A DNA stretch of 64,000 bases, taken from contig NZ_WTZA01000001.1 in NCBI RefSeq assembly GCF_009827495.1, forward strand, positions 1,426,001 to 1,490,000, given 5' to 3'. The position numbers and the translations under genes were made by a program. A model generated the notes under the pieces. That model saw nothing but the letters and a program-made list of their open reading frames with translations, was not told the DNA's origin and searched no databases. The stretch is from Tsuneonella aeria. Lineage in GTDB: Bacteria; Pseudomonadota; Alphaproteobacteria; Sphingomonadales; Sphingomonadaceae. Positions 30,531 through 54,495 of the stretch are shown in pieces. Numbering within the stretch: position 1 is the stretch's first letter; every line of letters begins with the position of its first letter.

Positions 30531-30623
30531 GGAGACGTGGGTGAGTGGCTGAAACCAACGGTTTGCTAAACCGTCGTACTGGTAAATCCGGTACCGAGGG
30601 TTCGAATCCCTCCGTCTCCGCCA
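30531..30623 (+). tRNA. tRNA-Ser (GCT)
   Basis: A complete class II tRNA of 93 nt including the encoded CCA. The acceptor pairs GGAGACG with CGTCTCC, discriminator G. The anticodon stem-loop puts GCT at 30565-30567, a long variable arm follows, and the T-arm carries GGTTCGAATCC. Its 3' end is the crossover target of an integrative element: the last bases are repeated at 45162-45177 and, in a longer form, at 54474-54495. Confidence 0.97.
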
Positions 30624-30625
30624 CT
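30610..30625 (+). other. attL core of the tRNA-Ser element
   Basis: CTCCGTCTCCGCCACT at the tRNA-Ser 3' end is repeated exactly at 45162-45177, where the integrase gene lies close by. The integration leaves the tRNA intact, as usual for P4-type integrases. Confidence 0.85.
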
Positions 30626-30665
30626 TTCCTCTGAAACAATTGTGTTTTTACGAATAAGGACGCGT

Positions 30666-30690
30666 CGTTCCCATAACCGCTCCCCGATAA
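30666..30690 (+). repeat. left-end integrase arm-type repeat
   Basis: This 25-bp stretch matches 45009-45033 with one mismatch. It contains GTTCCCA at 30667 and a degenerate second copy 12 bp later. It lies about 40 bp inside attL, where arm-type sites of tyrosine integrases are expected. Confidence 0.6.
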
Positions 30691-30760
30691 GCCGCTCGCT
30701 TTGTTGTGTTTGGATTGAGGCTGGCGCATTCTTGCCAGCAACGCGCGGAAGGGGGCTTCG

Positions 30761-31201
30761 ATGTCATTTTTGAAACGGTTGTTTGGCGTGAAGCCGGACA
30801 GACGCAGCGCCAAACAAACTGGATTTTTCTGGCAGCGTGCCGAGCTACCGGCGCTGGCGGCCGGACGGGGTTTCAACCAGGACGTTGTTGGCGAGTCGTT
30901 CCACAAGGCGATATTGAAGCGCATTACAGGCGGCTCAACCCGTTTCGGTGTGACAGTTGATAAGACGGCTGAATTAGTGATCGGGGCTTTCGAAGGATCG
31001 CCTGCCCTTTTCGTTTTCATCGAGGGCCAGCGCGTCGGTTCTATTTCGCGGCTGGAATCTGGCGAGTTAATGGCCGAATTGTTAGCGGTTGCGCCGAACG
31101 GACATGCCACATCGAAAGCGAACGTGGGCGCAGGATATGAAGGCGCGGACTATTGCGTTCGCCTGAGCCTTGCTCGGCCACTCAGGGTTCGTAGCGCCTA
31201 A
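30761..31201 (+). CDS. HIRAN-like domain protein
   Basis: 146 residues. After a basic N-terminus, the stretch from about residue 40 to 110 resembles a HIRAN domain: QDVVGESFHKAILKRITGG at the start, a middle strand TAELVIGAFEGSPALFVF, and the end EGQRVGSISRLESGELMAEL. HIRAN domains bind 3' ends of single-stranded DNA at damaged or stalled forks, and bacterial ones are often stand-alone. A GAAGGGGG ribosome binding site precedes the ATG. It is the first gene inside attL, next to the SRAP gene, so a DNA-damage role is plausible. The family match is by eye only. Confidence 0.5.
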   Translation: MSFLKRLFGVKPDRRSAKQTGFFWQRAELPALAAGRGFNQDVVGESFHKAILKRITGGSTRFGVTVDKTAELVIGAFEGSPALFVFIEGQRVGSISRLESGELMAELLAVAPNGHATSKANVGAGYEGADYCVRLSLARPLRVRSA

Positions 31202-31265
31202 CGAATCCTGCTCATTTCATTCCCTTGGCGCAGCGCACCGCCGCCACCGCGATGCGCGCCGGTCC

Positions 31266-31868
31266 CTAGCGCGCGCTCCATTTCTGCGTCGTCCGGTCTA
31301 ACATAACGGCCCCTTCAAACGGCACACATAGAGCCTTGGCGTCCGCGACTGTCCCGCGCAGCCACGCCTCATAATCACGCTCTGCCAGCAAAACTGGCAT
31401 CCGGTCATGGCATTCCGCCGCAGCTCCGCAGCTGTCAGTCATTACCATCGAATAGACTTCGCCCCATTCTTCGCTCGCGCGCCAGATACCAGCAGCGGCA
31501 AACACTTCGCGGTCGGGCAATCGCAACCAGGTTCGCGTCATTGCGCCTTTCGGCCCCTCCGCTTCCGCCCAGCCGGTCATGGGGATGAGACAGCGCCGCT
31601 CCTCAAAACTATAGCGCCACATGTAGCTGCCAAGCTTGTCGCTGCGCGCATTGTTTACCGGGCGAGGTTTCAGCAACTGCCCTTTCGCTCCCTTCATCGC
31701 CAGCGGGAAACCCCAAGTCATCCGCCGCAGGTCGCCTTGCGCCACAACCGCGCCCGGATAGCCGGGATAAACCTCTTCCCCCAAGTTCGCGCCTGTCATT
31801 GCATTCTGCACGCCGAACAGCCGCGCGACCTCCGCCGTGGCCTTGGTCATGCGATAGAGATTGCACAT
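31266..31868 (-). CDS. SOS response-associated peptidase (SRAP, YedK/HMCES family)
   Basis: 200 residues. The catalytic Cys2 that forms a thiazolidine bond with abasic sites is present (MCNLYRMT). The conserved RPVNNARSD motif binds DNA, the active-site Glu lies in TGWAEAEGPKG, and the C-terminal histidine is in AECHDRMPVLL. SRAP proteins shield abasic sites in single-stranded DNA. A perfect alphaproteobacterial LexA box lies 30 bp upstream of the start, so SOS control is likely. Neighbours are a HIRAN-like gene and a divergent zinc-ribbon gene. Confidence 0.93.
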   Translation of the reverse strand: MCNLYRMTKATAEVARLFGVQNAMTGANLGEEVYPGYPGAVVAQGDLRRMTWGFPLAMKGAKGQLLKPRPVNNARSDKLGSYMWRYSFEERRCLIPMTGWAEAEGPKGAMTRTWLRLPDREVFAAAGIWRASEEWGEVYSMVMTDSCGAAAECHDRMPVLLAERDYEAWLRGTVADAKALCVPFEGAVMLDRTTQKWSAR

Positions 31869-31897
31869 TGTTGCCTACTCTCTTCTCCGACTCGTTT

Positions 31898-31912
31898 GTT
31901 CTCGCCATGTTC
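31898..31912. promoter_or_regulatory. LexA (SOS) box, GTTC-N7-GTTC
   Basis: GTTCTCGCCATGTTC matches the alphaproteobacterial LexA consensus GTTCN7GTTC exactly. It lies 30 bp upstream of the SRAP start on one side and just before the divergent zinc-ribbon gene on the other, so both may be derepressed by DNA damage. Confidence 0.8.
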
Positions 31913-31918
31913 CAGCGA

Positions 31919-32158
31919 ATGGCCGATTACACCAGCCCCAAGCCCATCGATCCAATCTGGTATCAGCCGCATGCCTTTCTGCGAGTCCAATGCGGTTGCG
32001 GGCGAAACGAAACGTATGAGCTTAGCGAGTTTGCGGATTATCACCGCGTGGACCGGCGCACAAAGCTCTATCGGCTGATCGCCCGGCTGCGGTGCGAGAC
32101 GTGCGGGGCGCGCCCAGAAGCGGAGGTTACACGCTGGCGAAACGGAAACCGGCGTTAA
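31919..32158 (+). CDS. small zinc-ribbon-like protein
   Basis: 79 residues from MADYTSPKP; a start at 31907 would add four residues but overlaps the LexA box. Cysteines sit as CGCG (about residue 23) and CETCG (about residue 61), spaced to bind one zinc ion. Between them is a basic, tyrosine-rich helix (YHRVDRRTKLYRLIARLR). I do not recognise the family. The divergent SRAP gene shares the SOS-box region. Short cysteine-paired proteins of this kind are common in mobile elements. Confidence 0.55.
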   Translation: MADYTSPKPIDPIWYQPHAFLRVQCGCGRNETYELSEFADYHRVDRRTKLYRLIARLRCETCGARPEAEVTRWRNGNRR

Positions 32159-32197
32159 TCCTCGTTCTTGGAAGCTGCATGGGTCTGGCTGCGCGCC

Positions 32198-32467
32198 TTA
32201 ATTCAGCTCATGTCGCACCAGCCGCGCAATCTCTCTTAGGTATCGCGCCGCCGCCATGGTTTCGGCGGATCGCCCGCCATGCTTCCAGGCGTTGCGATTG
32301 CCTTTAGGTGCGCCGGGGTTCGTCCCGCCGTGCATTCGGCACCGCTTCCGCCCTTTCACCGCCGGGGATTGGCATTCCGCTCCCGAACGGGTCCGCGCCA
32401 AGCAACGCGGGGCCGATCCTAGGCGCGCCGTTTGTGGTTGCTTGGGATTGATCGTCGGCTTTTCCAT
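32198..32467 (-). CDS. HGG-motif small protein (phage/plasmid type)
   Basis: 89 residues from MEKPTINP. It has the pattern RCLARTRSGAECQSPAVKGR, then CRMHGGTNPGAPKGNRNAWK followed by HG. This Cys/His-rich motif with a GAPxGNxNAxKHG tail recurs in proteins of prophages and integrative elements, some placed next to terminase small-subunit genes. The function is not established. Its first 164 bp overlap the 3' end of the next gene upstream in a different frame, and both frames show real protein character. Confidence 0.7.
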   Translation of the reverse strand: MEKPTINPKQPQTARLGSAPRCLARTRSGAECQSPAVKGRKRCRMHGGTNPGAPKGNRNAWKHGGRSAETMAAARYLREIARLVRHELN

Positions 32468-33185
32468 TTTGCTTCCCCCCGTTATGGACATTCTCGGCAA
32501 TGACGGCCTGCCCGCCCCGATTATCGACGTGGATATGCTTCACGATCTGTTCCCCGCCCCGGCGCATCCGGGCCAGCGTTTCCATTTGCCGCTGAGAGGT
32601 TCCCAGCAGTTTCGTCGCCAGGTTCCCGAAAGTCTGAGCGTGCGGCACCCATTCCGCCGATCCTAGTTGGCTCAGCGCGCGGATCGCCGCGTCATGGGTG
32701 CAATACATCTGCACCAGCAACAAAGCCTCCGCCTGATCCTGAGGCTTCATGTTCTCGATGAATGAAAGCGCCGCGTTATAGCGGCCCTCATTGTCAGCGC
32801 CGACTGAGCCGAGATAGCGCAGCAGTTCTTGGGCGCGCGCGTTTATCGGATCGATCGAGCTGGCAGCGAAGGTGTCATGCAGCTTGAGGCTGGCCAGTAG
32901 TTCGCTCTTGCCGTGCGGGGCGATGCTCCAGCCTCCGTCCGGTTTGCGCGTCATCTTAACCTTTGCAGGGTCTCCACGCTTGCGAAAGGCGCGGACGAGG
33001 CGAGTTAGTTCCTCTTGCTCAGTTTCGCTCAGATCATCCCAGCCGGGCACGTTGCGCGCCAGAGAGCGCATGGCTTTGTCCGGATCGTCCGTGCCCGGAT
33101 CGGGAAGGTCGATCGTTTTGCTAGGCGTGTTTGCCTTGGATTTTGCAACCGGTTGCTTCCGTTTCGCCTTGTTCGTCGCGCCCAT
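32304..33185 (-). CDS. hypothetical element protein with basic N-terminus
   Basis: 293 residues. The start at 33185 (MGATNKAKRKQPVAKSK) is supported by a GGAGG ribosome binding site 9 bp upstream. The protein has a lysine-rich N-terminus, then a mostly helical body with RYNAALSFIENMKPQDQAEA and ALLLVQMYCTHDAAIRALSQ. The C-terminal part (~210-240) contains VKHIHVDNRGGQAVIAENV, a segment I associate with phage-like genes neighbouring HGG proteins. No enzymatic motif is visible. The 3' end overlaps the HGG gene by 164 bp. Confidence 0.7.
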   Translation of the reverse strand: MGATNKAKRKQPVAKSKANTPSKTIDLPDPGTDDPDKAMRSLARNVPGWDDLSETEQEELTRLVRAFRKRGDPAKVKMTRKPDGGWSIAPHGKSELLASLKLHDTFAASSIDPINARAQELLRYLGSVGADNEGRYNAALSFIENMKPQDQAEALLLVQMYCTHDAAIRALSQLGSAEWVPHAQTFGNLATKLLGTSQRQMETLARMRRGGEQIVKHIHVDNRGGQAVIAENVHNGGKQNGKADDQSQATTNGAPRIGPALLGADPFGSGMPIPGGERAEAVPNARRDEPRRT

Positions 33186-33230
33186 TTTCCCGCACCTCCA
33201 AAATCGATCCTCAGTCGCCTTCACCCGCAC

Positions 33231-33271
33231 CACACCACCACCTCACCCCTATAAATAGGGGTGGTGGTGTG
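33231..33271. other. 17-bp imperfect hairpin with TATAAATA centre
   Basis: A 12-bp plus 5-bp stem (33231-33242 and 33248-33252 with 33255-33271, 5-nt bulge on the left arm) sits alone in the 96-bp gap between the RepA-like and hypothetical genes. It could end the RepA transcript, act as an operator, or be part of a replication origin. The sequence does not decide between these. Confidence 0.5.
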
Positions 33272-33281
33272 GGCAGGTTCT

Positions 33282-34559
33282 TCACGGATCAGCGCCCGCA
33301 CCTTCCGCACTTTCCGCACCACACGTTGCAAGGTGCGGACGGCTGCCAATCTCGCTGGGGTCAACCGGCTTGCCGACGATCACAAAAGGCACGTCCCTGC
33401 CGTTGAGCGTCCGGTGCTCGACCGCGAGCGCGCCGTTCTTTCGCCACGTGCGCAGGATCGCCTTGATGCGCCCTCGATCGGTATCGGCGGACAGGCCCGC
33501 CACTCTGGCGACAAGATGGCCGACCCAGTCCTTGGCCTGCACGCTTTCGCGCCAGTCGCCCGTCGGCAGCCCCTGCTGGACCATGTAGAGGTGCCATGTA
33601 GTCAAGCCGTGGAACACGTCCGGCTTTTCCCAGAGCGTCGCCACGCCGACAAAATCGGACGGCTCCAGCCCATCACCATTGTCGAGGCTCTGGCTTTCGA
33701 GCTTGATCCACGTGGCAGCATCGGGCGGTGCGCGGTTGGCTTTGCCGGTGTCGATCCGCACCAGCGAGCGCCGTTCCTGAGGATTGACTATGCCCAGTTC
33801 CTCGGCTTCCTTGTCGCCCATGGGATTGATCGGAAGCACGACGCGGGCGGCATCGCGCAAGGCAACCGCGCCGCGCCCGTCCTCAGCCGTCACCTCGCGC
33901 CCGCCGAGCTTGCGCGTGTGGTGCACCAGGACGATCGCAGAGCCGGTTTCCTGAGCCAGCCGCTTCCACCGCTTCGTGATGGCGTCGATCGCCTCGTTCG
34001 AGCTTTCCCGCACCGCATGGCTCGACACGAACGGATCGACGATCACGGTTGCGATGCCGCGTTCGCGGATCGTCGCGGCGAGCTGGGCGAAGACTTCCTC
34101 CGCCAGCGTGAAGCCGTCCCGATCCTCGCTTGCCGTGCAGAGCGGCTGAACTAGGCCGCTGTCGAGGTGCAGCCGGTCCCCGCAATCGGCTGGCCCGATG
34201 CCATGATAGGCGCAGGCGGCGGACAGTTGACGGTTCAGTTCGTCGGGGCCGTCCTCAAGGTTGAAGATCCAAACCGCTTGCGGCCCGCGATGGATCGGCT
34301 TGCCCAAGAGAGGCTGCCCGCTGGCGAGACTTAGCGCGATCGTGTTGCCGATCGTGCTCTTGCCGGTGCCCCCCGGCGCGATGATCGCCGTCACCTCTCC
34401 TCGCAAGAGCCAGTGCCCCATGAGCCATTGCCGCCGTGGTAGCGAGGCAGGGTCCGGGAAGCGGAACGGAGTGGCGCGCAGGGCAGAGTGCCCGGCGATA
34501 CGTGCCGCCGCTTCATCCGGCTGGAGTGCGGCAAGATCGAGGGGTTCGGGGTTCAACAT
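33282..34559 (-). CDS. RepA-like hexameric ATPase/helicase (AAA_25)
   Basis: 425 residues of the RecA/DnaB-like fold used by plasmid and island RepA helicases. Walker A is IIAPGGTGKSTIGNTIALS, a Walker B-like strand is in GIATVIVDPFVSS, and the sensor region is AIVLVHHTRKLGG. The C-terminal third looks like a winged-helix tail (RGRIKAILRTWRKNGALAVE). It overlaps the Toprim gene by 7 bp. Together they form a primase-helicase unit able to drive replication of the excised element; the host range is unknown. Confidence 0.82.
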   Translation of the reverse strand: MLNPEPLDLAALQPDEAAARIAGHSALRATPFRFPDPASLPRRQWLMGHWLLRGEVTAIIAPGGTGKSTIGNTIALSLASGQPLLGKPIHRGPQAVWIFNLEDGPDELNRQLSAACAYHGIGPADCGDRLHLDSGLVQPLCTASEDRDGFTLAEEVFAQLAATIRERGIATVIVDPFVSSHAVRESSNEAIDAITKRWKRLAQETGSAIVLVHHTRKLGGREVTAEDGRGAVALRDAARVVLPINPMGDKEAEELGIVNPQERRSLVRIDTGKANRAPPDAATWIKLESQSLDNGDGLEPSDFVGVATLWEKPDVFHGLTTWHLYMVQQGLPTGDWRESVQAKDWVGHLVARVAGLSADTDRGRIKAILRTWRKNGALAVEHRTLNGRDVPFVIVGKPVDPSEIGSRPHLATCGAESAEGAGADP

Positions 34560-35485
34560 TTCTCAACACCCCGCGCCGCTTCGACGCGCGCTGCCACGTG
34601 CTCGCGCGGAATGTCCGCAAAATCGGCTCCTGAGTCCCCTGAGCGGCCTTCGGCCCTTGTGGGCACCGCCACATAGCCGCCAACCGCCTGAGCGGCCTTC
34701 CTAGCCGCCTCCAGCCCCAAGTTGGTGGGCAGGTGGCAATCGTCGTCCGCTGCGATCACAATCTCGCGCGTCGGGAAGAGCTTCCGCATGGACCGCGCGA
34801 CCGGCTCTAAATTGCGGGCCGACATCGCGGCGGCAACGCCGTAGCCGGTTGCGGAATGGATCGCCGCCACGGTGGCGAAGCCTTCCCCGATCACCAGCGG
34901 CCCTGCCGATGGCCTGCCGTCGCTCAGGTGGACGCCATGGGGCCAGAACAGCCCAGCCGTGCGAGCATCCTTGCCGAATAGCTTGAATCCATCGGGCCGG
35001 ATGCGCTGAACGTTCCACAGGCGAAAGCCGGGATCGACCATCGGCACCAGCAACTCGCGCCCGGCCTGCCGCACTCCGAACGGCTCCAGTGCCTTGGCGA
35101 CAAGATAGGGGTGCGCGGGATCGGCCCGGCTGGCGTTGCGCCATAGGTCCGCCGCTACGCGCGCCGCCGTTTCCTCGGCTGCCAGCCGCGCGCGCTTGCG
35201 GGCCAACTCAGATTGCCGGATCGATCGTCGCTCCGCCGCTGTCAGCTCGCGCGCGCCCGCGCGAGATTGTCCGAGAAACCCGTCCGCGCGCAGCATGGCC
35301 TTGACCGCCAGCGCATCGGCCTGTGTGCCGTTGTAGCAGGCGACAAGGCAACCATCCGGCGCAAGCGCGCTGGCCTTGATCGCAGTCCCCCGATCACGGC
35401 TGGAATGCCCCGGCGTCGGGATCAACGCGTTGCCCTTGCACACCTTGCCGCCGTAGTGCCGCGCTATCGCGTCAACGTCGATCAC
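34553..35485 (-). CDS. Toprim domain primase-like protein
   Basis: 310 residues. The N-terminal ~60 residues (MIDVDAIARHYGGKVCKGNA) resemble the DNA-binding head of mobile-element primases. A helical linker and a Toprim domain (~180-290) follow, with the conserved glutamate in GPLVIGEGFATVAAIHSATG and the acidic pair in EIVIAADDDCHLP. Such proteins make primers for the element's own replication. It overlaps RepA at its 3' end and the winged-helix gene at its 5' end, so three genes are translationally coupled. Confidence 0.82.
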   Translation of the reverse strand: MIDVDAIARHYGGKVCKGNALIPTPGHSSRDRGTAIKASALAPDGCLVACYNGTQADALAVKAMLRADGFLGQSRAGARELTAAERRSIRQSELARKRARLAAEETAARVAADLWRNASRADPAHPYLVAKALEPFGVRQAGRELLVPMVDPGFRLWNVQRIRPDGFKLFGKDARTAGLFWPHGVHLSDGRPSAGPLVIGEGFATVAAIHSATGYGVAAAMSARNLEPVARSMRKLFPTREIVIAADDDCHLPTNLGLEAARKAAQAVGGYVAVPTRAEGRSGDSGADFADIPREHVAARVEAARGVEKC

Positions 35486-35793
35486 AGGGCGGCCCTCCCC
35501 TTGTCGGTCAGCCTGAGCACGGACGCGCTCTTGCCGCTGGGATTGCGCCGCCGCGCGCCGGTCGGTTCGACCAGGCCCATGGCCCGCAACTCGGAAAAGC
35601 GCGGCTGGAGCGATTCACGGGTCACACCGGAAGCCGCGACAGCCTCTAGCGGCGTGGCCTCCCCCAGCCGGGCAAGCGTCCGCATGGCGAGGCGGCGAAG
35701 GCGCGAGACACTGGGAGCGATCGAGCCGGCAGCAGCTTGGCTTGTGCCGTCCGCGCCCTTCGCGCCGGGTTCATCGGGAGAGCAGTCAGACAT
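35482..35793 (-). CDS. small winged-helix DNA-binding protein
   Basis: 103 residues from MSDCSPDEPG. After a disordered ~35 residues, a winged helix is readable: RLAMRTLARLGEATPLEAVA, the recognition helix TRESLQPRFSELRAMGLVEP, and a wing ending SVLRLTDKG. It is probably a regulator of the replication module, in which it sits between the 61-residue gene and the primase. The start overlaps the stop of the upstream small gene. Confidence 0.72.
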   Translation of the reverse strand: MSDCSPDEPGAKGADGTSQAAAGSIAPSVSRLRRLAMRTLARLGEATPLEAVAASGVTRESLQPRFSELRAMGLVEPTGARRRNPSGKSASVLRLTDKGRAAL

Positions 35794-35971
35794 TGCCCAC
35801 GCCTCCCTCTGCCAGCCGCGCCAGAAACCGCTCGCCAAGATGGAGCGCGATCAGCTCGGGGATTGCTTGCGGGGGTGAAGCGGGAGGGGTAAGGGGATCA
35901 CGGAACCAGCCGCCACAGCTATTCCGCGATGCCCGCGCCTCACCCGCGCGGGTTTCGCTTATCTGGGGCAC
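35786..35971 (-). CDS. small hypothetical protein of the replication module
   Basis: 61 residues, GTG start. It lies in a tight chain: 3 bp after the excisionase stop, and its own stop overlaps the next start by 8 bp. The tail (IPELIALHLGERFLARLAEG) looks helical. No family is recognised. The tight spacing is the main support for it being real. Confidence 0.45.
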   Translation of the reverse strand: MPQISETRAGEARASRNSCGGWFRDPLTPPASPPQAIPELIALHLGERFLARLAEGGVGNV

Positions 35972-35974
35972 GGC

Positions 35975-36163
35975 TCATGCCTCCCCGGCGATCAACGCAT
36001 GCAGGCTATCCGCCGGAATGACGGTGCGCCCGCCAATGCGGACGGCCCTCAGGCGATTTGCGGCTATGTGCGCGTAGAGCGTCGTCCGCCCCAGACTGGA
36101 CGCCTTGCAGGCTTCCTTGATGGAATAGGCGATCTTGGGAGGATCGTTGGTGTCGGTCTGCAT
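35975..36163 (-). CDS. AlpA/excisionase-type helix-turn-helix protein
   Basis: 62 residues from MQTDTNDPPK with a GAGGAA ribosome binding site. The MerR/excisionase-like helix-turn-helix is clear: YSIKEACKASSLGRTTLYAH followed by LRAVRIGGRTVIP, the typical wing. AlpA/Xis proteins control integrase expression or direct excision. It is the first gene of the leftward operon leading into the primase and helicase genes, so it is probably the element's switch protein. Confidence 0.82.
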   Translation of the reverse strand: MQTDTNDPPKIAYSIKEACKASSLGRTTLYAHIAANRLRAVRIGGRTVIPADSLHALIAGEA

Positions 36164-36255
36164 CGGTTTTCCTCGTTCGTGAGTGAACGAGGCCAACAAG
36201 CGTCAGCAGAATACCCGCAGCAAATTACCCATGTGCGGCAATGGATGCGCCTTTT

Positions 36256-37629
36256 TCATGCGCCTTTTTTAGGTCGCCCCCCCGGCTTCCAACGTCCCTT
36301 AATCAGTTCGCGCACGGCGGTGGTCGCCACGTTCTGAAAACCCGGTTCCAGCCGCATTTCCTTAGCGATCGTCCGCCCATCCATCCCGCGAGACTTCATT
36401 TCATCAGCCTTCGCCAAAATCTCATCGTCGCTCGGCGGACGCCCGGCCTTGACCGATGGCGCTCTAGTGCGGGCGGTGCTCTCGGGCGACTCCGAAGGCA
36501 TGATGGCGTGAACGCCTTTCGCGCGGTGTGAAGGCGGCTCGGGGCAGTTAGTCACGCTGACCAGCGGTTCGCCGATACGCGCCGCCAGCGTGCTCCGTTT
36601 GAACCTGTCCCAATCTCCTTTCAAAATCCAAAGGGCAGTGCCTGCGAGTGGTTCGCGCCCGTTCGTAGGTTCGTAGATGCCGTTTTTTAGTGTCCTGAAA
36701 TTCAGCTCGCGCAACGCATGGCGATCGATCGGATGGGCGCCATTGACGAGCATCGTGTAGAGTAGGAGCTTACCAGATTGCACCGCCTCTCGAACGTAGA
36801 ACATGGCGACTTCCCGCGTCTGCCACTCGCGCAGTAGATCGCTGTCGGAGCTGTAAAACTTAAATTCGATGGCGGTTTCTGAATCACTCAGGTCCGGCCC
36901 GTTGCTTATGCCGTTAGCCAGATCAGCCACCGCATCGTTTAGGCGGATCGAGTTGGGAACAGCGATGCCATCGAGCCGCCTGAGCTGTCCTGCTCCGCCA
37001 TGATATGGCGGTGCAACCAGTTGCAAATTCGGCGCAAACTTTGGCTCCCTAGTGCCGGGACTCTTAGCCACACCCGGCAGTCTTTCGGCGTCCACCTCGG
37101 TAGCGAAGCTCACCCAATCATCGCACTTCACGAACAGCGGGCGCTCCCATAGCCAAGGCCGATCGGCGTCCGCCTTGTACTCCTCCGACTGCGGGCAGAA
37201 CACGCCTCCAGCGATAGATCGCTTGTCTATGGTCGCCAACGCCCCGACTGCCACCAGCCTTTCCGGCTCCCCATGCGGCGCAACCCAAATTGGCAAGTCT
37301 CCTGAGCGAATGGCGTAGGAGATGCGGCGGTCCATGTCCTCCAGATTGGCCTGCCGTCGCAACCAATCTGATCGCTGATCCTCCGGTATGGCTTGCGCTA
37401 GATCCACCATGCGAGGGGGCAATTCAGACGGGAAAGGCCACCGCTCCGAACGGTCGGCCAAATCGATCCAGCAGCGGGACAGCTCATAGGCATCGGAAAC
37501 CGCTGGCCCGCGATGCTTGTCCCCGTAACGCTTGCCAGCAAGCGCGGCATCGCTGCCTTGGAGCGGCGCGGGCACCACAACGCCCCGTTCGTCATATTGC
37601 GTCAAATCCGCCTCCCAAGCGGCTCCCAT
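36256..37629 (-). CDS. hypothetical element protein with C-terminal HTH-like segment
   Basis: 457 residues from MGAAWEADLTQYDERG. The frame continues upstream to 37779, but that part runs into a dispersed repeat (copy A), so the longer start is unlikely. The body has no motif I recognise; a stretch with EFKFYSSDSDLLREWQTREV and many charged residues suggests a soluble protein. The end (SDDEILAKADEMKSRGMDGR, then TIAKEMRLEPGF and a basic tail) looks like a helix-turn-helix. No ribosome binding site marks a start. Codon use is less GC-rich than the core genes. Confidence 0.6.
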   Translation of the reverse strand: MGAAWEADLTQYDERGVVVPAPLQGSDAALAGKRYGDKHRGPAVSDAYELSRCWIDLADRSERWPFPSELPPRMVDLAQAIPEDQRSDWLRRQANLEDMDRRISYAIRSGDLPIWVAPHGEPERLVAVGALATIDKRSIAGGVFCPQSEEYKADADRPWLWERPLFVKCDDWVSFATEVDAERLPGVAKSPGTREPKFAPNLQLVAPPYHGGAGQLRRLDGIAVPNSIRLNDAVADLANGISNGPDLSDSETAIEFKFYSSDSDLLREWQTREVAMFYVREAVQSGKLLLYTMLVNGAHPIDRHALRELNFRTLKNGIYEPTNGREPLAGTALWILKGDWDRFKRSTLAARIGEPLVSVTNCPEPPSHRAKGVHAIMPSESPESTARTRAPSVKAGRPPSDDEILAKADEMKSRGMDGRTIAKEMRLEPGFQNVATTAVRELIKGRWKPGGRPKKGA

Positions 37630-37730
37630 GGTGAAGCGGGGAAGCGCGTGGGATGCGCGCTTGTCGGCAGGCCTGCCTATCCCCACCGCAGCTTCTAAGG
37701 CCTCAGGTTGCGGCCTGCCAGCCGCGCTCA

Positions 37731-37799
37731 GAAACCATCCGCATATTCGCCAGGATCGCCAAAAGCTGCCAGTCCGCAAACGACCCCTTTGCGGACATT
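37731..37799 (+). repeat. dispersed repeat, copy A (3' half)
   Basis: Matches the 3' half of copy C, ending in the inverted pair GTCCGC...GCGGAC. It lies between the 457-residue gene and the PIG-L gene. Confidence 0.65.
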
Positions 37800-37838
37800 A
37801 TCTGAAGGTTATAGCATCGCACGTGTAGGAGCCACGCC

Positions 37839-38765: not shown

Positions 38766-38800
38766 CGCTTTCGTCGTCGCTGACCTGCGCCTTCGGGCTA

Positions 38801-38925
38801 ATGTCGGTTTCCCACCCAGTATCCGACGTTGACGACCGGCTTTGTCGAGCCTGAGAGCCGACTGTCGGCTTCGGAATCCTCCTGGTCAAAAACCTGCCTG
38901 TCGGCATACGACCCATTGCTGTCAT
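38801..38925 (+). repeat. dispersed repeat, copy B
   Basis: About 125 bp between the PIG-L and YoaK genes. It is the most diverged copy; it keeps the TGTCGG-TTTCCCACCCA start and the CTGTCGGCATACGACCCATT end. Confidence 0.65.
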
Positions 38926-47197: not shown

Positions 47198-49533
47198 CAG
47201 AAGGCGTACCTTGCGACGACCTGGAACACCGGTCCGGCGCGCTCACTCTCGAGCTCGTACTCGTCGAAGTCGCGGTCGATCTGGTCTGCGATGGTGGTGA
47301 ACTTGTTGAACGTTTCAGCCTTCGCGCTGTCCAGTAGGTTCGATCCCACCGCGCGGATGGTGAAGCTGTCACCGATGCGCTTTTCGACGAACACCTCCAG
47401 GTCCGCGCCGTACGTGGTGCGCACTTCCTCGCCTACCAGACGGTCAACCGCCGCCCCCTGCTTGCGGTAGGTGGCGCCGAACGCCGCAGCCAGCGTACGC
47501 AGGTTCTGGATGAAGCCGAAGTTGTAGACGTATTTCGACTGGCCGTTGAACCGCCGCTCACCGAACTGGTCGGTGATGTTGCTATCCAGAAGCGACAGGT
47601 TGCCGAACACACCAGTGTCGCGCAGGCCGATGAAGCCAAGGTCGGACGACAGGTCGAATTCGATGCCGTACACCTCGCCGTTGCCCGCATTGCGCGGCTG
47701 GAGGACGAAGGTGCCAGCGCCTTCCGAGCCTTCCGCTCCGGTGTTGGCGATCTCGACCAGATCTTTCACGTCGCGGTAGAACAGGTTGACGCCAATTACA
47801 CCAGTGCGGCCAATGCGGTGCTCGTACCCCAGGTCCGCGCCCCACGCAGTCTCGGGCCTGAGCAGCGGGTTGCCGAGCAGGTCGTTGTCGCCAAGCTCCG
47901 CCTCTAGCAGCGCGGGCGAGATATAGTCGAACCGTGGGCGGCGCATGGTCCGCGCGACCGAGCCGGTCACCCGGCCAGCGCCGACCTGGTACTTGAACGA
48001 GGCGGAGGGCAGCAGCGCATCGTAATCGGTGCGCGAACTGCCGAGCCCGGCGCCGACCGTCTGGTCGTCGATACGAACCTCGGTGTTTTCCCACCGCACG
48101 CCCGCTTCGAAGCGGAGCGGCCCGCTGTCGCCTTCGACCAGCGCGTAAACGTCGCGGCGATCTTCGTCGATCGTGTTGAGGCCGCCGGCGGCGGGCTGGA
48201 GCGCGGGGAAGTTGTCCGGCGCGAATTCGCCCGGATCGCGGCTGAACTGGTCGTAGCCGCTACGGTCCGCGGCGGTGAGGTTGAAGCGGCTGCGGATCGT
48301 CTGAATATTGGTCGCCCGATCCTTATTCTGCGCAAAGGCGCCGATCGCGAAGTCGACTCCGCTGCCGAGTCCGAACACGTGCTCCAGCTTGGCGAACACT
48401 TCGTCGTCGCGGGTCGTGCGGGTGGTCAGGTCGCCGGTGAAGCGCGGAGCGGAGCGGTCGAAATCGACCTCGTATTCGAATTCGTCCTGCGCATCGTCGA
48501 ACCGGGCGAAGCCGACCCGCAGCTTGGTCTCGCCCAGCGCCCAGCGGTGGTCGAGCTCAGCGCCCAGAGACCAGCTTTCCTGGTCAATCGAATTGACGTT
48601 GGCGTTGTCGGTCAACAGATTGCCCGGGGTGCTGGTGCGCACCGGACCGGTGATCGCGGTCGGATCGTCATACTCGAAGGACCGTTCGCTCTCGGTACGG
48701 TCGGTCCGGACGTACGAGCCGGAAATCTCGAAATCGGTCGTTGCCCCCTCGATGCCCCAGGCGACGTTGCCCGAGTAATCGGTGCCGTTGCGGATGTCGG
48801 TCTGGTCTTCGCGGTTGTCGAATTCGTTCGTCGCAAAGTCGGGATCGTTCTCGGGCGAGTCGCCGAACCGCAGGCTGCTCTTCTTCTTGGGGTTATAGCG
48901 GCCTTGCACGTTGGCGCCGAGCAGCACTCGTCCAGGCCCCAGCGCGCCGCCATAATAGAAGCCGCTGCTCGGCTTGACCTTGCCGTCGTCGAACAACAGC
49001 GCGCCGCCCCGGACGTAGCCGCCATCGAGGGTGTAGCCATCACGCAGCACGATGTTGAGCGTGCCCGCGACCGCATCGCCCGAACGGCGAGCGGAGGACG
49101 ACCTGACAATCTCCACCTGCTTGATCAGTTCGGCTGGAATGCGGTCGAGGAAGAACGAGCGATCCGCCTGGCCGCCGGGGACCTTCTCACCATTGATCAG
49201 GATCTGCGTGTATCCGGGATCCAGCCCGCGTAACCGCGCGCCGTCGCTTTCGATCACGTCCGACAGGAAAGTGACCGATGGCACGCGCTTCAGGGCATCG
49301 CCCGCGGTCAGCGGTTCGAACCGCTGGAAGTATTCCTCGTCATACACCAGCACCGGCTCGGCCGCCTCGCTGCGATTGCGGAAGCCGATATCAGCCTGGA
49401 CGACGATCTCCTGGCTGGTCTTGATATCGCGGTCGGGCCTTTCGGCTACGCTGTCGGGGTTGTCGGCGGTCTGGGCGAAAGCGGGCGTGACGGCGAGCGC
49501 AAGCATGCTTGCGCCGCAAAACAAACGAATCAT
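47197..49533 (-). CDS. TonB-dependent outer-membrane receptor (phytase-linked)
   Basis: 778 residues with a signal peptide (CGASMLALAVTPAFAQ). The plug domain (~60-170) carries ALKRVPSVTFLSDVIESDGA, RLRGLDPGYTQILINGEKVP and the DRIPAELIKQVEIVRSSSAR segment. The ~22-strand barrel ends in an aromatic residue (FQVVARYAF), as expected for BAM insertion. Immediate linkage to a phytase and a PHO box 75 bp upstream suggests that it imports phytate or inositol phosphates under phosphate starvation; substrate is inferred. Confidence 0.9.
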   Translation of the reverse strand: MIRLFCGASMLALAVTPAFAQTADNPDSVAERPDRDIKTSQEIVVQADIGFRNRSEAAEPVLVYDEEYFQRFEPLTAGDALKRVPSVTFLSDVIESDGARLRGLDPGYTQILINGEKVPGGQADRSFFLDRIPAELIKQVEIVRSSSARRSGDAVAGTLNIVLRDGYTLDGGYVRGGALLFDDGKVKPSSGFYYGGALGPGRVLLGANVQGRYNPKKKSSLRFGDSPENDPDFATNEFDNREDQTDIRNGTDYSGNVAWGIEGATTDFEISGSYVRTDRTESERSFEYDDPTAITGPVRTSTPGNLLTDNANVNSIDQESWSLGAELDHRWALGETKLRVGFARFDDAQDEFEYEVDFDRSAPRFTGDLTTRTTRDDEVFAKLEHVFGLGSGVDFAIGAFAQNKDRATNIQTIRSRFNLTAADRSGYDQFSRDPGEFAPDNFPALQPAAGGLNTIDEDRRDVYALVEGDSGPLRFEAGVRWENTEVRIDDQTVGAGLGSSRTDYDALLPSASFKYQVGAGRVTGSVARTMRRPRFDYISPALLEAELGDNDLLGNPLLRPETAWGADLGYEHRIGRTGVIGVNLFYRDVKDLVEIANTGAEGSEGAGTFVLQPRNAGNGEVYGIEFDLSSDLGFIGLRDTGVFGNLSLLDSNITDQFGERRFNGQSKYVYNFGFIQNLRTLAAAFGATYRKQGAAVDRLVGEEVRTTYGADLEVFVEKRIGDSFTIRAVGSNLLDSAKAETFNKFTTIADQIDRDFDEYELESERAGPVFQVVARYAF

Positions 49534-49607
49534 AAATTCTCGAGCCCCTCGGTCGGTGAACTGAGCCGGCCGCTAGGGTTGCAATGTTACGGGATCGCGG
49601 ACTCTGC

Positions 49608-49625
49608 ATGACAGACGCGTGACAG
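49608..49625 (-). promoter_or_regulatory. PHO box upstream of the TonB receptor-phytase operon
   Basis: On the minus strand it reads CTGTCAC-GCGT-CTGTCAT: two 7-bp CTGTCA[T/C] units with the 4-nt spacer (11-bp period) of the PhoB site. It lies 75 bp before the receptor start. This points to PhoB-PhoR control. Confidence 0.8.
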
Positions 49626-49650
49626 GCGCTTTCCGCCGGCTTCCACGCGG

Positions 49651-51168
49651 TCAGGCGCCCAGCGCGCCTTCCGGCGTTTCGCTGACCGCGACGACCGGTT
49701 TCAGGCCGATCCATTCGGCCAGCTGCTTCAGGTCGCCCTTGACTTGCTCCGACAACAGTTGCGCGCGCGACGGGTGAAGCCACAGGCGCAGCACGCGATC
49801 GCTGCGGATCAGCCGGCTGGTGATCAGCGACACCCGCGAGCCCGATCCCAGGCGCTTGCACAGGCGGAAGGCCATGCCCCAGGTGACCGCTTCGCGCAGC
49901 GCCCCGGCGTCAGCGAGCCGCGCCAACTCGGGCCGGTCGATCGGTTGCTTGCCACCAGCGGCGAGCAGCGTGGCGGCGATCCGCGCGCGGCCAGCCGCGT
50001 CAAGGCCGACCCAGCGCTTTTCCATCGCCCAGTCGTAAGCCTGCCGCGCCCGCAGGTTGGGCTCGATGTGACCCATCGCCAGCGCCAGCAGGATCGCGGC
50101 GAAGCGCAACCGCTCCGCGGCGGGGTCGTTGCCCGGCACCGCGTCGGCGGTCCACGCTGCAATGATCGCGGCCAGCGCCGGCGCGCCGCCGCGCGTCTCG
50201 GTGAAATGCGCCACCGCGGCGATCAGCGGGTCCTGCCGGCGTAGTTCGTGGTCGAGCCGCTGGAACAGCAACCCCTCGCGCAGGCCCCAAGAAGAAAATA
50301 CCAGGCTGTCGCGCTGCAATTCTCCCAGCATCAGCCGCAGCAAGGCCGCCGCATCCGGCAGCGCGCCGGCGCGGGTGGCTGATATGCCCGGCAGCGCGGC
50401 CAGCCGCTCAGGGTCCATCCGCTCGACCCGGCCGGCGAGCGCTTCGGCCTCGGCGCGCGTCAGAACGAAACCATGCGGATCGCTTAGCGGGTATTTGCCA
50501 TCGCGCATCGCCAGCACTGCCAGCGCGCGCCACGTACCGCCGACCATGTACATGGGTCCTGGATCGGCAGCCTCCCAGCCGACCCTACCGATCGCGGCGC
50601 TCACCTCCTTGTCGAACGATCGCGCTCCCCTGGCCCGCAAGGCGGGCAGCCGCAGCGTGCCGAACGGCAGGCTGACGCCATCGTGGCAGTCGCCATCGCC
50701 GATCGTCACCAGTTCCAAGCTGCCCCCGCCCAGGTCGGCCACGGTTCCGCGGGCACCGGGAAATGCGCCGATCACCCCGAAGGCGGAGGCGCGCGCTTCC
50801 TCGTCGCCCGCCAGGAGCCGGGGCGCCAAGCCGAGAGCGCGCACCTGAGCGAGGAACTCCTCGCCGTTGCTTGAATCGCGCACGGCGGCGGTCGCCACCG
50901 TCTGCACGTCAGCGATCGCGAAATCCTCGATGATGGTGGCATAGCGGGCGAGCGCGCGGAGCGCGCTGTCCATCGCCTTGTCGGCCATCTTGCCGGTGAG
51001 TGCCAGGTCCCGCCCTAGCTTGGCGCTGTCTCGTTCGTTGAACCACACCCGCGGAGCGCGCGTAGGGCCGGCGTAGATCACCAGCCGGACGGTGTTCGAC
51101 CCGATGTCGATGACCGCGCGATCAGGTCCCGCGCCTTGCTCGAAACTCGCCGGCCGCCCGCGCGTCAC
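49651..51168 (-). CDS. ppx: exopolyphosphatase (Ppx/GppA family)
   Basis: 505 residues of the ASKHA phosphatase fold: AVIDIGSNTVRLVIYAG at the start and TVADLGGGSLELVTIGDGD for the second phosphate loop. A C-terminal HD-type helical region (AVAHFTETRGGAPALAAIIA) follows. It releases phosphate from the ends of polyphosphate, and some family members also hydrolyse pppGpp. The start overlaps the ppk stop by 4 bp, so the two are coupled. Confidence 0.92.
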   Translation of the reverse strand: MTRGRPASFEQGAGPDRAVIDIGSNTVRLVIYAGPTRAPRVWFNERDSAKLGRDLALTGKMADKAMDSALRALARYATIIEDFAIADVQTVATAAVRDSSNGEEFLAQVRALGLAPRLLAGDEEARASAFGVIGAFPGARGTVADLGGGSLELVTIGDGDCHDGVSLPFGTLRLPALRARGARSFDKEVSAAIGRVGWEAADPGPMYMVGGTWRALAVLAMRDGKYPLSDPHGFVLTRAEAEALAGRVERMDPERLAALPGISATRAGALPDAAALLRLMLGELQRDSLVFSSWGLREGLLFQRLDHELRRQDPLIAAVAHFTETRGGAPALAAIIAAWTADAVPGNDPAAERLRFAAILLALAMGHIEPNLRARQAYDWAMEKRWVGLDAAGRARIAATLLAAGGKQPIDRPELARLADAGALREAVTWGMAFRLCKRLGSGSRVSLITSRLIRSDRVLRLWLHPSRAQLLSEQVKGDLKQLAEWIGLKPVVAVSETPEGALGA

Positions 51169-53315
51169 ACGGCGCCCCGGCGGAGCTTCAGCTTGGGCAC
51201 GCGGCTATCAGCCAGCGCGCCGCCCCGGCCGGACAGCGAAGGGTTGGTCATGAAGTACTCATGTAAGTTGAAGCCATCGCCGCTTGCTTCCACCCGCTCA
51301 TACGTGCCGTCGCTGCCGTCGAGCAGCCAGCTTTGCTCGGTATCGATCAGGTTGGCCAGCAACACTTGTTCCAGCACCTGGCTGTGCACGGTCGGGTTAA
51401 GGATCGGCACCAGCACCTCTACGCGGCGTTTGAGGTTCCGGCTCATCGCATCGGCGCTTGAAATGAACACTTGAGCATGCTCGCTGGGCAGCGTGTGGCC
51501 ATTGCCGAACGCCCAGATTCGGCTGTGCTCCAAAAAGCGGCCGATGATCGATTTCACCGCAATGTTATCCGACAGGCCGTCCACCGACGGGCGCAGGCAG
51601 CAGATGCCGCGCACGACCAGCACCACCTTCACGCCAGCCTGCCCGGCGGCGTACAGTCGGTCGATGATCCCTCTTTCGGTCAGCGCATTGAGCTTTGCCC
51701 AGATCGCCGCCGGGCGCCCGGCGGCCGCATGCTCCGCCTCGCGATCGATCAGGCCGTAGAGCCGATCGCGCAAGGTCAGCGGGGAGATCGCCAGCAGCTC
51801 GGTTTCCTGCGGCTCGACATACCCGGTGACGAAGTTGAACACTTTGGCGGCGTCGCGACCGAGTGAAGGATCGGCAGTGAAGAAGCTGAGGTCGGTGTAC
51901 ACCCGCGCGGTCTGCGGATGGTAGTTGCCGGTACCGAAATGGCAGTATGTTCGGTACGCATTGTCTTCCCGCCGGACAACCATCGAGATCTTGGCGTGGG
52001 TCTTCCATTCGACGAAGCCGTAGATAACCTGAACGCCCGCTCGCTCCAGTTCGCTCGCCCACTTGAGGTTCTGCTCCTCGTCGAAGCGCGCCTTCAGCTC
52101 GACCACGGCGGTGACCGACTTTCCGGCTTCCGCGGCCGAGATCAGCGCGGCGACCACCGGCGACTGGTTCCCAGCGCGGTACAACGTCTGCTTGATCGAT
52201 ACGACGTGCGGATCGGCGGCCGCCTGCAAGAGGAAATCGACCACCACTTCGAAGCTTTCGTAGGGATGGTGGATGACGATGTCCTTTTCTCGGATTGCCG
52301 CGAAGCAATCACCGTCGTGCTCCAGGATCCGCTCGGGATATCGCGGCGCATAGGGCGCGAACTTGAGGTCGGGGCGGTCTTCGGCGACCACCTCGAGTAG
52401 CCCGTTGATGCCGATCAATCCGGCATTGCGGTTGATCGTTGGCTGGTCGACTGCGAGTTGGTCGATCAGCAGCTGCTCGGCGACAGGGTCGAAGCCCTGG
52501 TCGATTTCCAGCAGGACAACCCGCCCGCGACGTCGGCGCTGGATCGCGGAGCGGAAATATCGAACCAGGTCTTCGGCCTCTTCCTCAAGCTCGATATCGC
52601 TATCGCGCAACACGCGAAATGTGCCGTGTCCGTCTATCCGAAATCCTGGAAACAGCAGCGATGCATAGCGCGAGATCACCTGCTCGACCGCGATGTAGCT
52701 CGGACGCTCTCCTGGCACGCGCACGAGCCGCGGGATGGCGTTCGGGATCAACACCATCTCCACCAAGGTGCTGCCGTCGTCGATCCTGGTCAGCGTGAAC
52801 AGGGTGCCGATGCCCTGGTTGGCGACGAACGGGAACGGGTGCGCCGGGTCGATCGCCTGCGGGGTGATAACCGGCACGAGATGATCGAGGAAGTACTGCC
52901 GCAGCCAGTCCTCGGCGGCCGGGTCGATGGCGTCCGCCATCGCCAGGTGGATGCCGCAGTCCGCCAGCAGCGGAACTAGATCCTGCAGGATCGCCTGCTG
53001 GCTCTGTTCCAGTTCGCGCACTTTGGCGTGTATCGCGGTCAGCTGCTGGCTGGGGGTCAAGCCGTCGATCGACAGCTTGGGCACTTGGCCGCGGACTTGC
53101 GCCGCCAAGCCCGCCACCCGGATCATCATGAACTCATCGAGATTGCTGCCGGAAATCGACAGGAAGCGGAGTCGCTCGAGCGGCGGATAGGCCGCGTTGC
53201 TGGCTTCCGCCAAAACACGTTCGTTGAATGACAGCCAGCTGATTTCGCGGTTGAAGTATCGCGTCCGCGCCTCACCGATGGAGGTGGGCTGGCTACCCGT
53301 GCTGTTCAAATTCAT
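51165..53315 (-). CDS. ppk1: polyphosphate kinase 1
   Basis: PPK1 reversibly makes polyphosphate from ATP. The 716-residue protein has the N-terminal domain (RYFNREISWLSFNERVLAEA), the head domain, and the two C-terminal phospholipase D-like domains. These carry the phosphorylated histidine in EWKTHAKISMVVRREDNAYR and the next histidine in YCHFGTGNYHPQTARVYTDL. A frame up to 53405 exists, but I start at MNLNSTGSQPTS because the extra 30 residues are not conserved and a PHO-like site lies there. It is followed by ppx. Confidence 0.95.
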   Translation of the reverse strand: MNLNSTGSQPTSIGEARTRYFNREISWLSFNERVLAEASNAAYPPLERLRFLSISGSNLDEFMMIRVAGLAAQVRGQVPKLSIDGLTPSQQLTAIHAKVRELEQSQQAILQDLVPLLADCGIHLAMADAIDPAAEDWLRQYFLDHLVPVITPQAIDPAHPFPFVANQGIGTLFTLTRIDDGSTLVEMVLIPNAIPRLVRVPGERPSYIAVEQVISRYASLLFPGFRIDGHGTFRVLRDSDIELEEEAEDLVRYFRSAIQRRRRGRVVLLEIDQGFDPVAEQLLIDQLAVDQPTINRNAGLIGINGLLEVVAEDRPDLKFAPYAPRYPERILEHDGDCFAAIREKDIVIHHPYESFEVVVDFLLQAAADPHVVSIKQTLYRAGNQSPVVAALISAAEAGKSVTAVVELKARFDEEQNLKWASELERAGVQVIYGFVEWKTHAKISMVVRREDNAYRTYCHFGTGNYHPQTARVYTDLSFFTADPSLGRDAAKVFNFVTGYVEPQETELLAISPLTLRDRLYGLIDREAEHAAAGRPAAIWAKLNALTERGIIDRLYAAGQAGVKVVLVVRGICCLRPSVDGLSDNIAVKSIIGRFLEHSRIWAFGNGHTLPSEHAQVFISSADAMSRNLKRRVEVLVPILNPTVHSQVLEQVLLANLIDTEQSWLLDGSDGTYERVEASGDGFNLHEYFMTNPSLSGRGGALADSRVPKLKLRRGAV

Positions 53316-53365
53316 GACGCCCCAATGGCCCGGCCGGCTTACCGGAAGACGCGTGCGGGAATCAG

Positions 53366-53383
53366 ATGTCAGTTTCGCGACAA
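53366..53383 (-). promoter_or_regulatory. degenerate PHO box upstream of ppk
   Basis: The minus strand reads TTGTCGC-GAAA-CTGACAT, matching the two CTGTCA[T/C] units at 5 and 6 of 7 positions with the correct 4-nt spacer, 51 bp before the ppk start. It would be weak alone; the strong PHO box on the neighbouring operon makes it more credible. Confidence 0.4.
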
Positions 53384-53401
53384 CGAGGTGGAAATCGCCG
53401 C

Positions 53402-53662
53402 TCAATGCGTCCCGGCGGGAGGCGCCGGCGGGTCCATCATCTTGGTCGCCTTGCGCCCGATCTGCCCCAGCGACCCTTTCCCCTCCAGCGTCTTTTCACC
53501 GAGATAAGCCGCCAGCGATGTGGCAGCGGACAACGCGAGGGTTCGCGCCTCGGGGTGCTCGAGCAAGCCGATTAACTTTCGCAAGTCCTTGCGTGTCCCC
53601 TTGGACAACTTGAACCCGAAAATCCGCTTGGGAATTGTCACCTTCTTGTCGGGCTTTGCCAT
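53402..53662 (-). CDS. small basic hypothetical protein
   Basis: 86 residues from MAKPDKKVTIPKRIFGF. It is lysine-rich with a helical centre (SKGTRKDLRKLIGLLEHPEA and LALSAATSLAAYLGEKTLEG) and a proline-rich tail. No family is recognised. It lies directly downstream of the restriction-gene remnant and shares its frame for a stretch, so the remnant's end was probably replaced by this gene. It reads toward ppk, 86 bp away. Confidence 0.6.
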   Translation of the reverse strand: MAKPDKKVTIPKRIFGFKLSKGTRKDLRKLIGLLEHPEARTLALSAATSLAAYLGEKTLEGKGSLGQIGRKATKMMDPPAPPAGTH

Positions 53663-54187
53663 GCTTGCACAAGGCGCCGCCAGCGTCGGCTTCGATGCCG
53701 CGTTCGCGCATAGCCCAATGGACGATGGCCTTGCTCGGATAGCGCGTTCCGTCGTGGACCAGCCAGTATCGGTTAGGCAGACGCGAACCTCGAGCGTACT
53801 CACGAAGTCTTGCGGCGAGCTGGCGGCATCGCAGGCTGCGATCGCTGCGAGAATGGCTTGGCGGTCGAGGCCGGACAAGCGGCCGCTCGGGCTGGCCTCG
53901 GCTTCGCAGAAGCGACGGTAGGTGGTCAGGGCCGATCGATAGGATGCCAGATTGTTGTAGAGATGCCCATCGATGGCGAGCGCTGTAAGGTTTGGCCGCC
54001 CCGCCGCTTCATCGGCGGTTGAATAAGCGAAGGTTTCGAGCAGCGACGCCATCCGGTTTTGCCGAAAGTGTTCGTCGAGGTCACCGTGGGCCTGATCGAC
54101 TCGTCTGGCGTCCGACATCTTGGTGCCGATGCTACTCGGCGCGAGCTCCTGTGTCTCAAGCCACGTCCTGTATTCCTGATCTCTCAC
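53663..54187 (-). pseudogene. frameshifted, truncated ScoMcrA-like restriction endonuclease remnant
   Basis: The frame begins MRDQEYRTWLETQELAPSSI and runs through YRSALTTYRRFCEAEASPSG, then loses sense near 53810. In another frame the protein continues as RLPNRYWLVHDGTRYPSKAI followed by VHWAM, which resembles the head domain that precedes HNH/SRA modules of ScoMcrA-type methylation-dependent endonucleases. After about 60 residues it is cut off by the MAKPDKK gene. So one frameshift and a missing catalytic C-terminus are visible. The family assignment is by motif memory. Confidence 0.55.
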
Positions 54188-54473
54188 CCGCGCTGCTCCA
54201 GTATCCTCTGAGGCTTGCCATCGAACGTCATCGCGACAGATTCGGACGCAGGCAAAAGTTCAGTTCGTTGGTCAACGAGCTTGGCAGATCGGAGCTACAA
54301 CTCATAGAGGCGGTCTTGGTCGGCGGGCGGGGAAAGGTCGCGGAACTAGGTTTCCGCCAGTCACGCTCCCACCGCCCAATATTCGATCAAAATAAACCTG
54401 GGGTATATTATGGGGTAAAATACAGGGTCGATTCAAGGTTCAACTCTTAAGTTCAATTGGTTAGCGCCTGAGG
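54188..54473. other. gene-free interval between remnant and distal att copy
   Basis: No convincing gene on either strand. The last ~90 bp are AT-rich (54385-54455), unlike the flanking DNA, with TATATTATGGGGTAAAATAC. This would fit the promoter or recombination end of a lost element. Confidence 0.4.
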
Positions 54474-54495
54474 TCGAATCCCTCCGTCTCCGCCA
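54474..54495 (+). other. distal copy of the tRNA-Ser 3' end (attR of an older insertion)
   Basis: 22 bp identical to 30602-30623 of tRNA-Ser(GCT), from the T-loop through CCA, with no tRNA body in front. It is the usual scar of integration into this tRNA. Confidence 0.75.

Follow-up and report, generated by a model that had tools for sequence, protein, structure and literature searches.

Organization of the locus

The region studied here is a stretch of 64,000 nucleotides from Tsuneonella aeria (positions 1,426,001 to 1,490,000 of contig NZ_WTZA01000001.1), hereafter the window, with coordinates counted from its first nucleotide. It contains a tRNA-Ser(GCT) gene followed by two adjoining segments, each bounded on the right by a copy of the 3' end of that gene. 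The first (element 1) carries a P4-type integrase; the second (segment 2) is a decayed island with genes for a phytase, a TonB-dependent receptor, an exopolyphosphatase (ppx) and polyphosphate kinase 1 (PPK1, the product of ppk). The principal features are as follows:

30531–30623, + strand: tRNA-Ser(GCT), the integration target (ARAGORN; CCA encoded; 3' end presumably rebuilt by element 1)
30610–30625, + strand: attL core of element 1, 16 bp, CTCCGTCTCCGCCACT (exact repeat)
30624–45177, no strand: element 1, P4-integrase island of about 14.55 kb
43699–44946, − strand: P4-type tyrosine integrase of element 1, with arm-binding, central and catalytic domains
45162–45177, + strand: attR of element 1 and displaced left junction of segment 2, 16 bp, CTCCGTCTCCGCCACT (exact repeat)
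45176–45960, no strand: left end of an older island, colinear with the corresponding end of the tRNA-Ser(GGA) island in the same genome
46163–47197, − strand: phytase (PF02333; Pfam)
47197–49533, − strand: TonB-dependent receptor, overlapping the phytase gene by one base
49608–49625, − strand: Pho-box-like site, one mismatch, about 75 bp upstream of the receptor gene
49651–51168, − strand: ppx (Pfam, trees)
51165–53405, − strand: ppk, likely start at 53315
54474–54495, + strand: outer attR, the distal repeat of the tRNA-Ser 3' end, 22 bp, TCGAATCCCTCCGTCTCCGCCA

The repeats of the tRNA end are real and far above chance expectation. Their common 14-mer core occurs without mismatch exactly three times in the window, and six sites match it with up to two mismatches, against 1.16 expected (maximum of 4 in 100 shuffles). 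The initial annotation described the copy at 45162–45177 as the last 16 bp of the tRNA; the copy is exact, but only 14 of its 16 bp belong to the tRNA, the remaining two (CT) lying outside it. The annotation was right that a longer copy of 22 bp, an exact repeat of 30602–30623, lies at 54474–54495, and that a P4-type integrase gene is found beside the 45162 copy, just inside it. The full TCGAATCCCTCCGTCTCCGCCA is thus shared by the tRNA and the distal copy, while the middle one retains just 14 bases of the tRNA and follows the right-end sequence of element 1. A D-arm-like sequence, TCAATTGGTTAG, precedes the outer repeat, but its interpretation as part of a tRNA pseudogene was rejected, with no tRNA match obtained and a 12-mer match within chance.

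Arm-type sites and the left end of segment 2

The motif GTTCCCA was found at 14 sites in the window, against 5.79 expected, and none of 100 shuffles reached 14. Seven of these sites lie at the proposed island ends (30667; 45010, 45047; 45233, 45245; 45676, 45688), where they form the following arrangements:

30667–30685, + strand: left arm-type pair of element 1, two mismatches to GTTCCCA-N5-GTTCCCA
45010–45053, no strand: right arm-type sites of element 1, a one-mismatch pair and an inverted single site
45233–45251, + strand: perfect GTTCCCA-N5-GTTCCCA pair of segment 2 (site scan)
45676–45694, − strand: second perfect pair of segment 2, inverted (site scan)

Segment 2 does keep tandem sites inside its left end, as proposed at the outset, but their distance is only loosely close to that in element 1: the first pair begins 44 bp after the CCA of the tRNA in element 1, versus 58 bp after the copied CCA in segment 2. 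The value for segment 2 is nearer to the 56 bp of the sister island at tRNA-Ser(GGA), on the second contig (C2) of the same genome. The leftmost 780 bp or so of segment 2 aligned with this island with a local score of 73 (mean of 21.8, standard deviation of 2.2 and maximum of 30 in 200 shuffles), and in both a perfect pair lies 56–58 bp beyond the end of the tRNA, followed about 440 bp later by a perfect pair in inverted orientation. On the basis of this alignment and the common arm-site layout, we identify 45176 as an island left end. The left end found in the congener G010 resembles it more weakly, with a one-mismatch pair and a score of 31 (maximum of 30 in shuffled sequences). The tRNA-Ser(GGA) island (L291:142–4665) is itself a remnant of about 4.5 kb with an FMN reductase gene, a 14-bp core and a truncated P4-type integrase retaining only the arm-binding and central domains. 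Also on C2, tRNA-Ser(CGA) adjoins a P4-type integrase (L101:9966–11351) with all three domains and 47% identity to that of element 1.

The phosphate genes of segment 2

The ppk, ppx, receptor and phytase genes are all on one strand, the receptor and phytase genes forming a pair separate from ppk–ppx. The PPK1 is full length and scored 1103.9 bits, against a cut-off of 908 for the NCBIfam equivalog model. A search of the whole genome (2.75 Mb, two contigs, with the window on C1) gave this single PPK1 match and no PPK2 match. The ppk gene is present in 379 of 397 genomes of the family, versus only four of the ten congeners compared (G001–G010; five of 11 with T. aeria itself). PPK2 was found in three of the 11 genomes of the genus (G001, G005 and G008), and G001 has three PPK2 matches in addition to its PPK1. 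Neither enzyme was matched in G002, G003, G006, G007, G009 and G010.

The sequences of the two genes point away from the genus. Among the matches listed, ppk was 78% identical to G285, G150 and G127, all of other genera, and 69–73% identical to the congeners; ppx was 67% identical to G285, versus 54–55% for the congeners. Phylogenetic trees were inferred from 44 ppk and 29 ppx rows, comprising the 30 best-scoring loci, the congeners and ten others, out of 379. The T. aeria ppk grouped with 17 rows of other genera (support 100/98) and its ppx with G285 (100/99), whereas the congeners formed groups of their own for both ppk (100/100) and ppx (100/99), with T. aeria outside. Constraining T. aeria and the congeners to a single clade was rejected by the approximately unbiased (AU) test for both ppx (p = 0.000256) and ppk (p = 0.0291). 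By contrast with these trees, rpoB placed the whole genus together (100/100), with T. aeria, in the protein tree, in a clade of eight genomes (100/99), six of which lack ppk and one of which, G008, has a ppk of the congener type. A three-protein tree of the genus was poorly resolved. With the gene trees at odds with the genus in this way, a horizontal origin is indicated for ppk–ppx.

The surroundings of tRNA-Ser(GCT) were read in each congener, over about 17 kb downstream of the gene (617 bp in G010). The genes of 46163–53405 gave no match (E up to 1e-8) there or in the 17–19 kb or so upstream of tRNA-Arg, the tRNA gene to the right of segment 2, in any of the ten. The initial annotation regarded the phosphate genes as accessory cargo, and named as evidence for residence their presence in place in all close relatives; they lie near either tRNA in 0 of the ten, and ppk itself was not found in six. 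With a single ppk, a patchy distribution in the genus and discordant ppk and ppx trees, these genes look acquired rather than resident. The ppk was probably re-acquired in a lineage whose close relatives mostly lack it. Loss followed by regain would be the simplest history, but is not a forced one.

Relative to the ppk–ppx locus resident in the family, the T. aeria copy has the same gene order with overlapping ends and a full-length PPK1; it differs in lying in an island remnant with phytase and receptor genes, and in grouping with other genera. A related receptor (57–78% identity) abuts the phytase gene in five of 20 phytase stretches (G008, G117, G245, G382 and G431), and a receptor with 39% identity lies close to it in G031. 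Phytase and ppk–ppx genes are near neighbours in at least five genomes of the genus coded g95 and in G264, a proximity that hints at a functional link. The Pho-box-like site before the receptor gene was the best in the window, although sites with up to four mismatches were not in excess (25, versus 15–29 in ten shuffles). At −100 of the related receptor genes, such sites had two mismatches in G117 and three in G245, and the other three relatives had a four-mismatch site or none; the chance rates per 411 bp were 2/400 for two mismatches, 8/400 for up to three and 56/400 for up to four. No such site was present in nine ppk upstream regions, and four-mismatch sites were present in one of five phytase upstream regions.

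Gene content of the two segments

Element 1 looks like a complete P4-integrase island: its integrase adjoins an att repeat at the 3' end of a tRNA gene. Its cargo, for the most part membrane proteins, includes SRAP, an AAA_25 protein and a Toprim protein, PIG-L, DUF1275, YetF, DUF2254 and MscS (Pfam). No relaxase or conjugation Pfam family was found in the 13 ORFs scanned, small ORFs lying outside the scan. An int-alpA RNA (RF02996) was detected at 37622–37687 (− strand), with 36.8 bits against a gathering score of 35.8. Element 1 resembles islands with integrases of the P4/CP4 type in its three-domain integrase, solved relatives of which include a CP4-like integrase, in its tRNA 3'-end target and in the position of the integrase near one att copy; it differs in that the integrase scored 147.7 bits, against a cut-off of 434 for the nearest NCBIfam integrase model.

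Segment 2 is a decayed island. The loss of its integrase, proposed initially, agrees with the lack of any integrase domain in the seven ORFs scanned with Pfam, other small ORFs being outside the scan. Promoter and terminator scans gave nothing above shuffled sequences. To the right of ppk lie the following features:

53402–53662, − strand: 86-aa ORF upstream of ppk, no family assigned
53663–54187, − strand: broken foreign-gene remnant, frameshifted (by inspection) and truncated, 73% identity over 135 aa to a 306-aa protein
54496–54720, no strand: rearranged junction, 225 bp, with no match upstream of tRNA-Arg in relatives

The broken gene had no NCBIfam or PADLOC match and only a sub-threshold Pfam match (DUF3945, E = 0.089). 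PF26345 is listed in the database for relatives of this gene, but a Pfam scan of three of them did not find it, and no function is therefore given to the remnant.

The tRNA-Ser(GCT) site and the right flank in related genomes

The 93-bp tRNA-Ser(GCT) sequence is identical in five of the ten congeners and is an insertion hotspot. In the stretches read beside it, an integrase-type gene is present in five: in G004, G005, G007 and G009, it matches the integrase of element 1 (92% identity in G005 and 87% in G004), and in G002 it has a phage integrase match below the Pfam cut-off (E = 8.8e-5). The left end of the G002 island (L090; about 10 kb) holds this weakly recognizable integrase, and the island also encodes a C-5 cytosine DNA methylase. 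G005 is filled, with an island of about 15 kb, and its near relative G001 is empty at the same tRNA, the flanks of the two being 92.7% identical over 1782 bp from the tRNA end on. In G010, there is an element-like left end, and a 27-bp att-like copy is located on another contig. The comparison with empty sites, suggested at the outset as a check, thus succeeded for a relative of element 1 (G005/G001) and for neither element itself among the ten congeners, because the right flank is a rearranged junction.

Homology to relatives on the right starts at tRNA-Arg (54719–54721) in all ten congeners (18 of 20 stretches). The names yhhQ, leuC and cysD are used below as working labels, yhhQ being a Pfam Vut_1 protein and leuC a member of the aconitase family. 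The tRNA-Ser and tRNA-Arg-yhhQ loci are 50–174 kb apart, in the same order and on one strand, in G003, G009, G006, G002 and G008, versus 24 kb here; this spacing indicates that the neighbourhood has also been rearranged. In G001, their order is reversed and about 418 kb separates them; the two are on opposite strands in G004 and on different contigs in G005, G007 and G010. A first marker for the block upstream of tRNA-Arg gave only a 54% match, and a leuC-like gene was used instead. The leuC-side block of G006 matches up to 58 bp from tRNA-Arg, and the T. aeria copy is on C2, beside a tRNA-Gly gene; cysD abuts tRNA-Ser in G003. A tRNA-Gly gene is present at both edges of the rearrangement (L293 and L297), before cysD on C1 (by inspection) and after the leuC-like block on C2 (ARAGORN), and these genes are possibly recombination sites.

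Origin of the stacked segments

We consider it likely that this locus arose by serial site-specific integration at one tRNA-Ser(GCT), with the phosphate genes as acquired cargo of the stacked islands. The tRNA 3' end would first have received one or two older integrative elements, which would have left the outer 22-bp repeat and brought, or later taken up, the phytase, receptor, ppx and ppk genes. They would then have lost the integrase and the right-end arm sites, leaving a remnant of the cis-mobilizable type. Element 1, with its own P4-type integrase, would have entered the rebuilt tRNA end, displacing the older segment by about 14.55 kb. This order of events, already put forward in the initial annotation, accords with the 22-bp match between the tRNA and the distal copy, the 14 tRNA bases of the middle copy and the island left end at 45176–45960. 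The island would have delivered ppk and ppx from a different genus in the same family, the lineage's own copies probably having been lost beforehand, such that the only polyphosphate-synthesis gene found in the genome would be island cargo.

Several observations weigh against this history or temper the evidence for it. The p-value for ppk is only 0.029 and the T. aeria branch is long (0.38); the ppk tree also splits other genera (g105 and g9), so the discordance is not unique to T. aeria and ppk may often be transferred in this family; and the trees were built from best-scoring and selected rows rather than from all 379. The rpoB trees from protein (80/86) and from DNA (81/98) give T. aeria different exact sisters, with weak support, and the congener-type ppk of G008, in the same rpoB clade, means that loss need not have preceded gain. 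GTTCCCA pairs with up to three mismatches are not in excess (eight in the window, versus two to nine in ten shuffles), so that only perfect and one-mismatch pairs and their positions carry weight. The left end of segment 2 was found only in T. aeria among 298 family genomes, including at least six congeners, and the element is therefore known from one copy, plus the related end on C2. Its right end has neither an integrase nor an arm pair near 54474. The right flank is rearranged, and a clean tRNA-Ser joined to 54496 was found in none of the ten congeners.

The phosphate genes might instead be resident, the copy at 54474 being a stray tRNA fragment and element 1 the only island, a possibility consistent with the occurrence of ppk–ppx beside a yhhQ-like gene in several other genera (six verified: G012, G016, G025, G047, G051 and G057). 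The T. aeria ppk does lie 1.5 kb from such a gene, but on its other side. Its ppx is 48–50% identical to the yhhQ-linked copies, versus 67% to that of G285, and the stretch retrieved from G285 gave no match to yhhQ. In all four ppk-bearing congeners, ppk is away from yhhQ, on a different contig or more than 270 kb distant, and inspection of G004 and G008 showed it between an ApaG gene and a LysR-type regulator, in the order ApaG–ppx–ppk–LysR regulator. Identity and context thus rule out residence beside yhhQ as in the other genera, and an exact 22-bp copy together with a recognizable island left end at 45176 does not fit a stray fragment; a resident origin is, overall, highly improbable. Recombination joining tRNA-Ser and tRNA-Arg could also have copied the tRNA end without integration. 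The short distance between the two loci here, the leuC-like block that precedes tRNA-Arg in relatives but is now on C2, and the position of cysD 157 kb upstream on C1 speak for such a rearrangement. It would account for the right flank only, leaving aside the island left end at 45176 and the foreign phosphate genes, and we regard it as an unlikely source of the outer repeat.

A refinement of serial integration, rather than an alternative to it, concerns segment 2 itself, which may consist of two older elements fused by an internal deletion, one with a GTTCCCA-type (P4-like) left end and another, of a different class, with the right end, implying at least three integrations. This proposal is based on the right end being unlike the P4 type and on the broken foreign gene found there. 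P4-type right ends have a core of about 14 bp following GGCGGA- or CGGA-like bases (element 1, G009, the tRNA-Ser(GGA) island on C2 and, with mismatches, G005), whereas tRNA sequence at the right end extends over 22 bp in segment 2 and 27 bp in G010, neither of which has an arm pair close by. However, neither parent was found as a complete element, and integrases of one family can differ in core length; we put a fused and a single origin of segment 2 on an equal footing.

Relationship to known systems and implications

Accretion has been described as the entry of an integrative element at an att site provided by a decayed resident (PMC5704250). As far as the outline of tandem accretion and of cis-mobilizable elements (CIMEs) in that account goes, segment 2 has the corresponding features: it is decayed, keeps att-like ends with copies of the same target on both sides (45162–45177 and 54474–54495), and has lost integration genes, neither integrase nor transfer genes being present in the seven ORFs scanned. 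Element 1, with its integrase, adjoins it at the same target end, in tandem order and with a truncated internal att copy. The differences from that outline are that recombinase sites are recognizable at the left end of segment 2 but not at the right, and that the scanned ORFs of both parts contain no conjugation genes. Stacking is therefore a known process, and the novelty lies in the cargo rather than the mechanism. No published account of such a case was found in a search of titles and abstract openings, which is no proof of absence.

Tentatively, and with some doubt, we suggest that all known polyphosphate kinases, PPK1 as well as PPK2, were lost from a clade and that one of its lineages later recovered the pathway through genes carried on a tRNA-Ser island, where they were joined to a phytate-capture pair under Pho control. 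Together these would make up a 'capture phosphate, store phosphate' cassette that could still move with, or by means of, element 1, given the att-like ends retained by segment 2. A gene near-universal in the family but patchy in the genus, present here as a single copy between island repeats, is unusual. If this interpretation is correct, a core pathway for storage would behave as a mobile trait, open to gain and loss, in this genus, which would provide a natural test of the role of polyphosphate, with resident, absent and re-acquired states, and a stacked, decayed island would be a lasting source of a core function.

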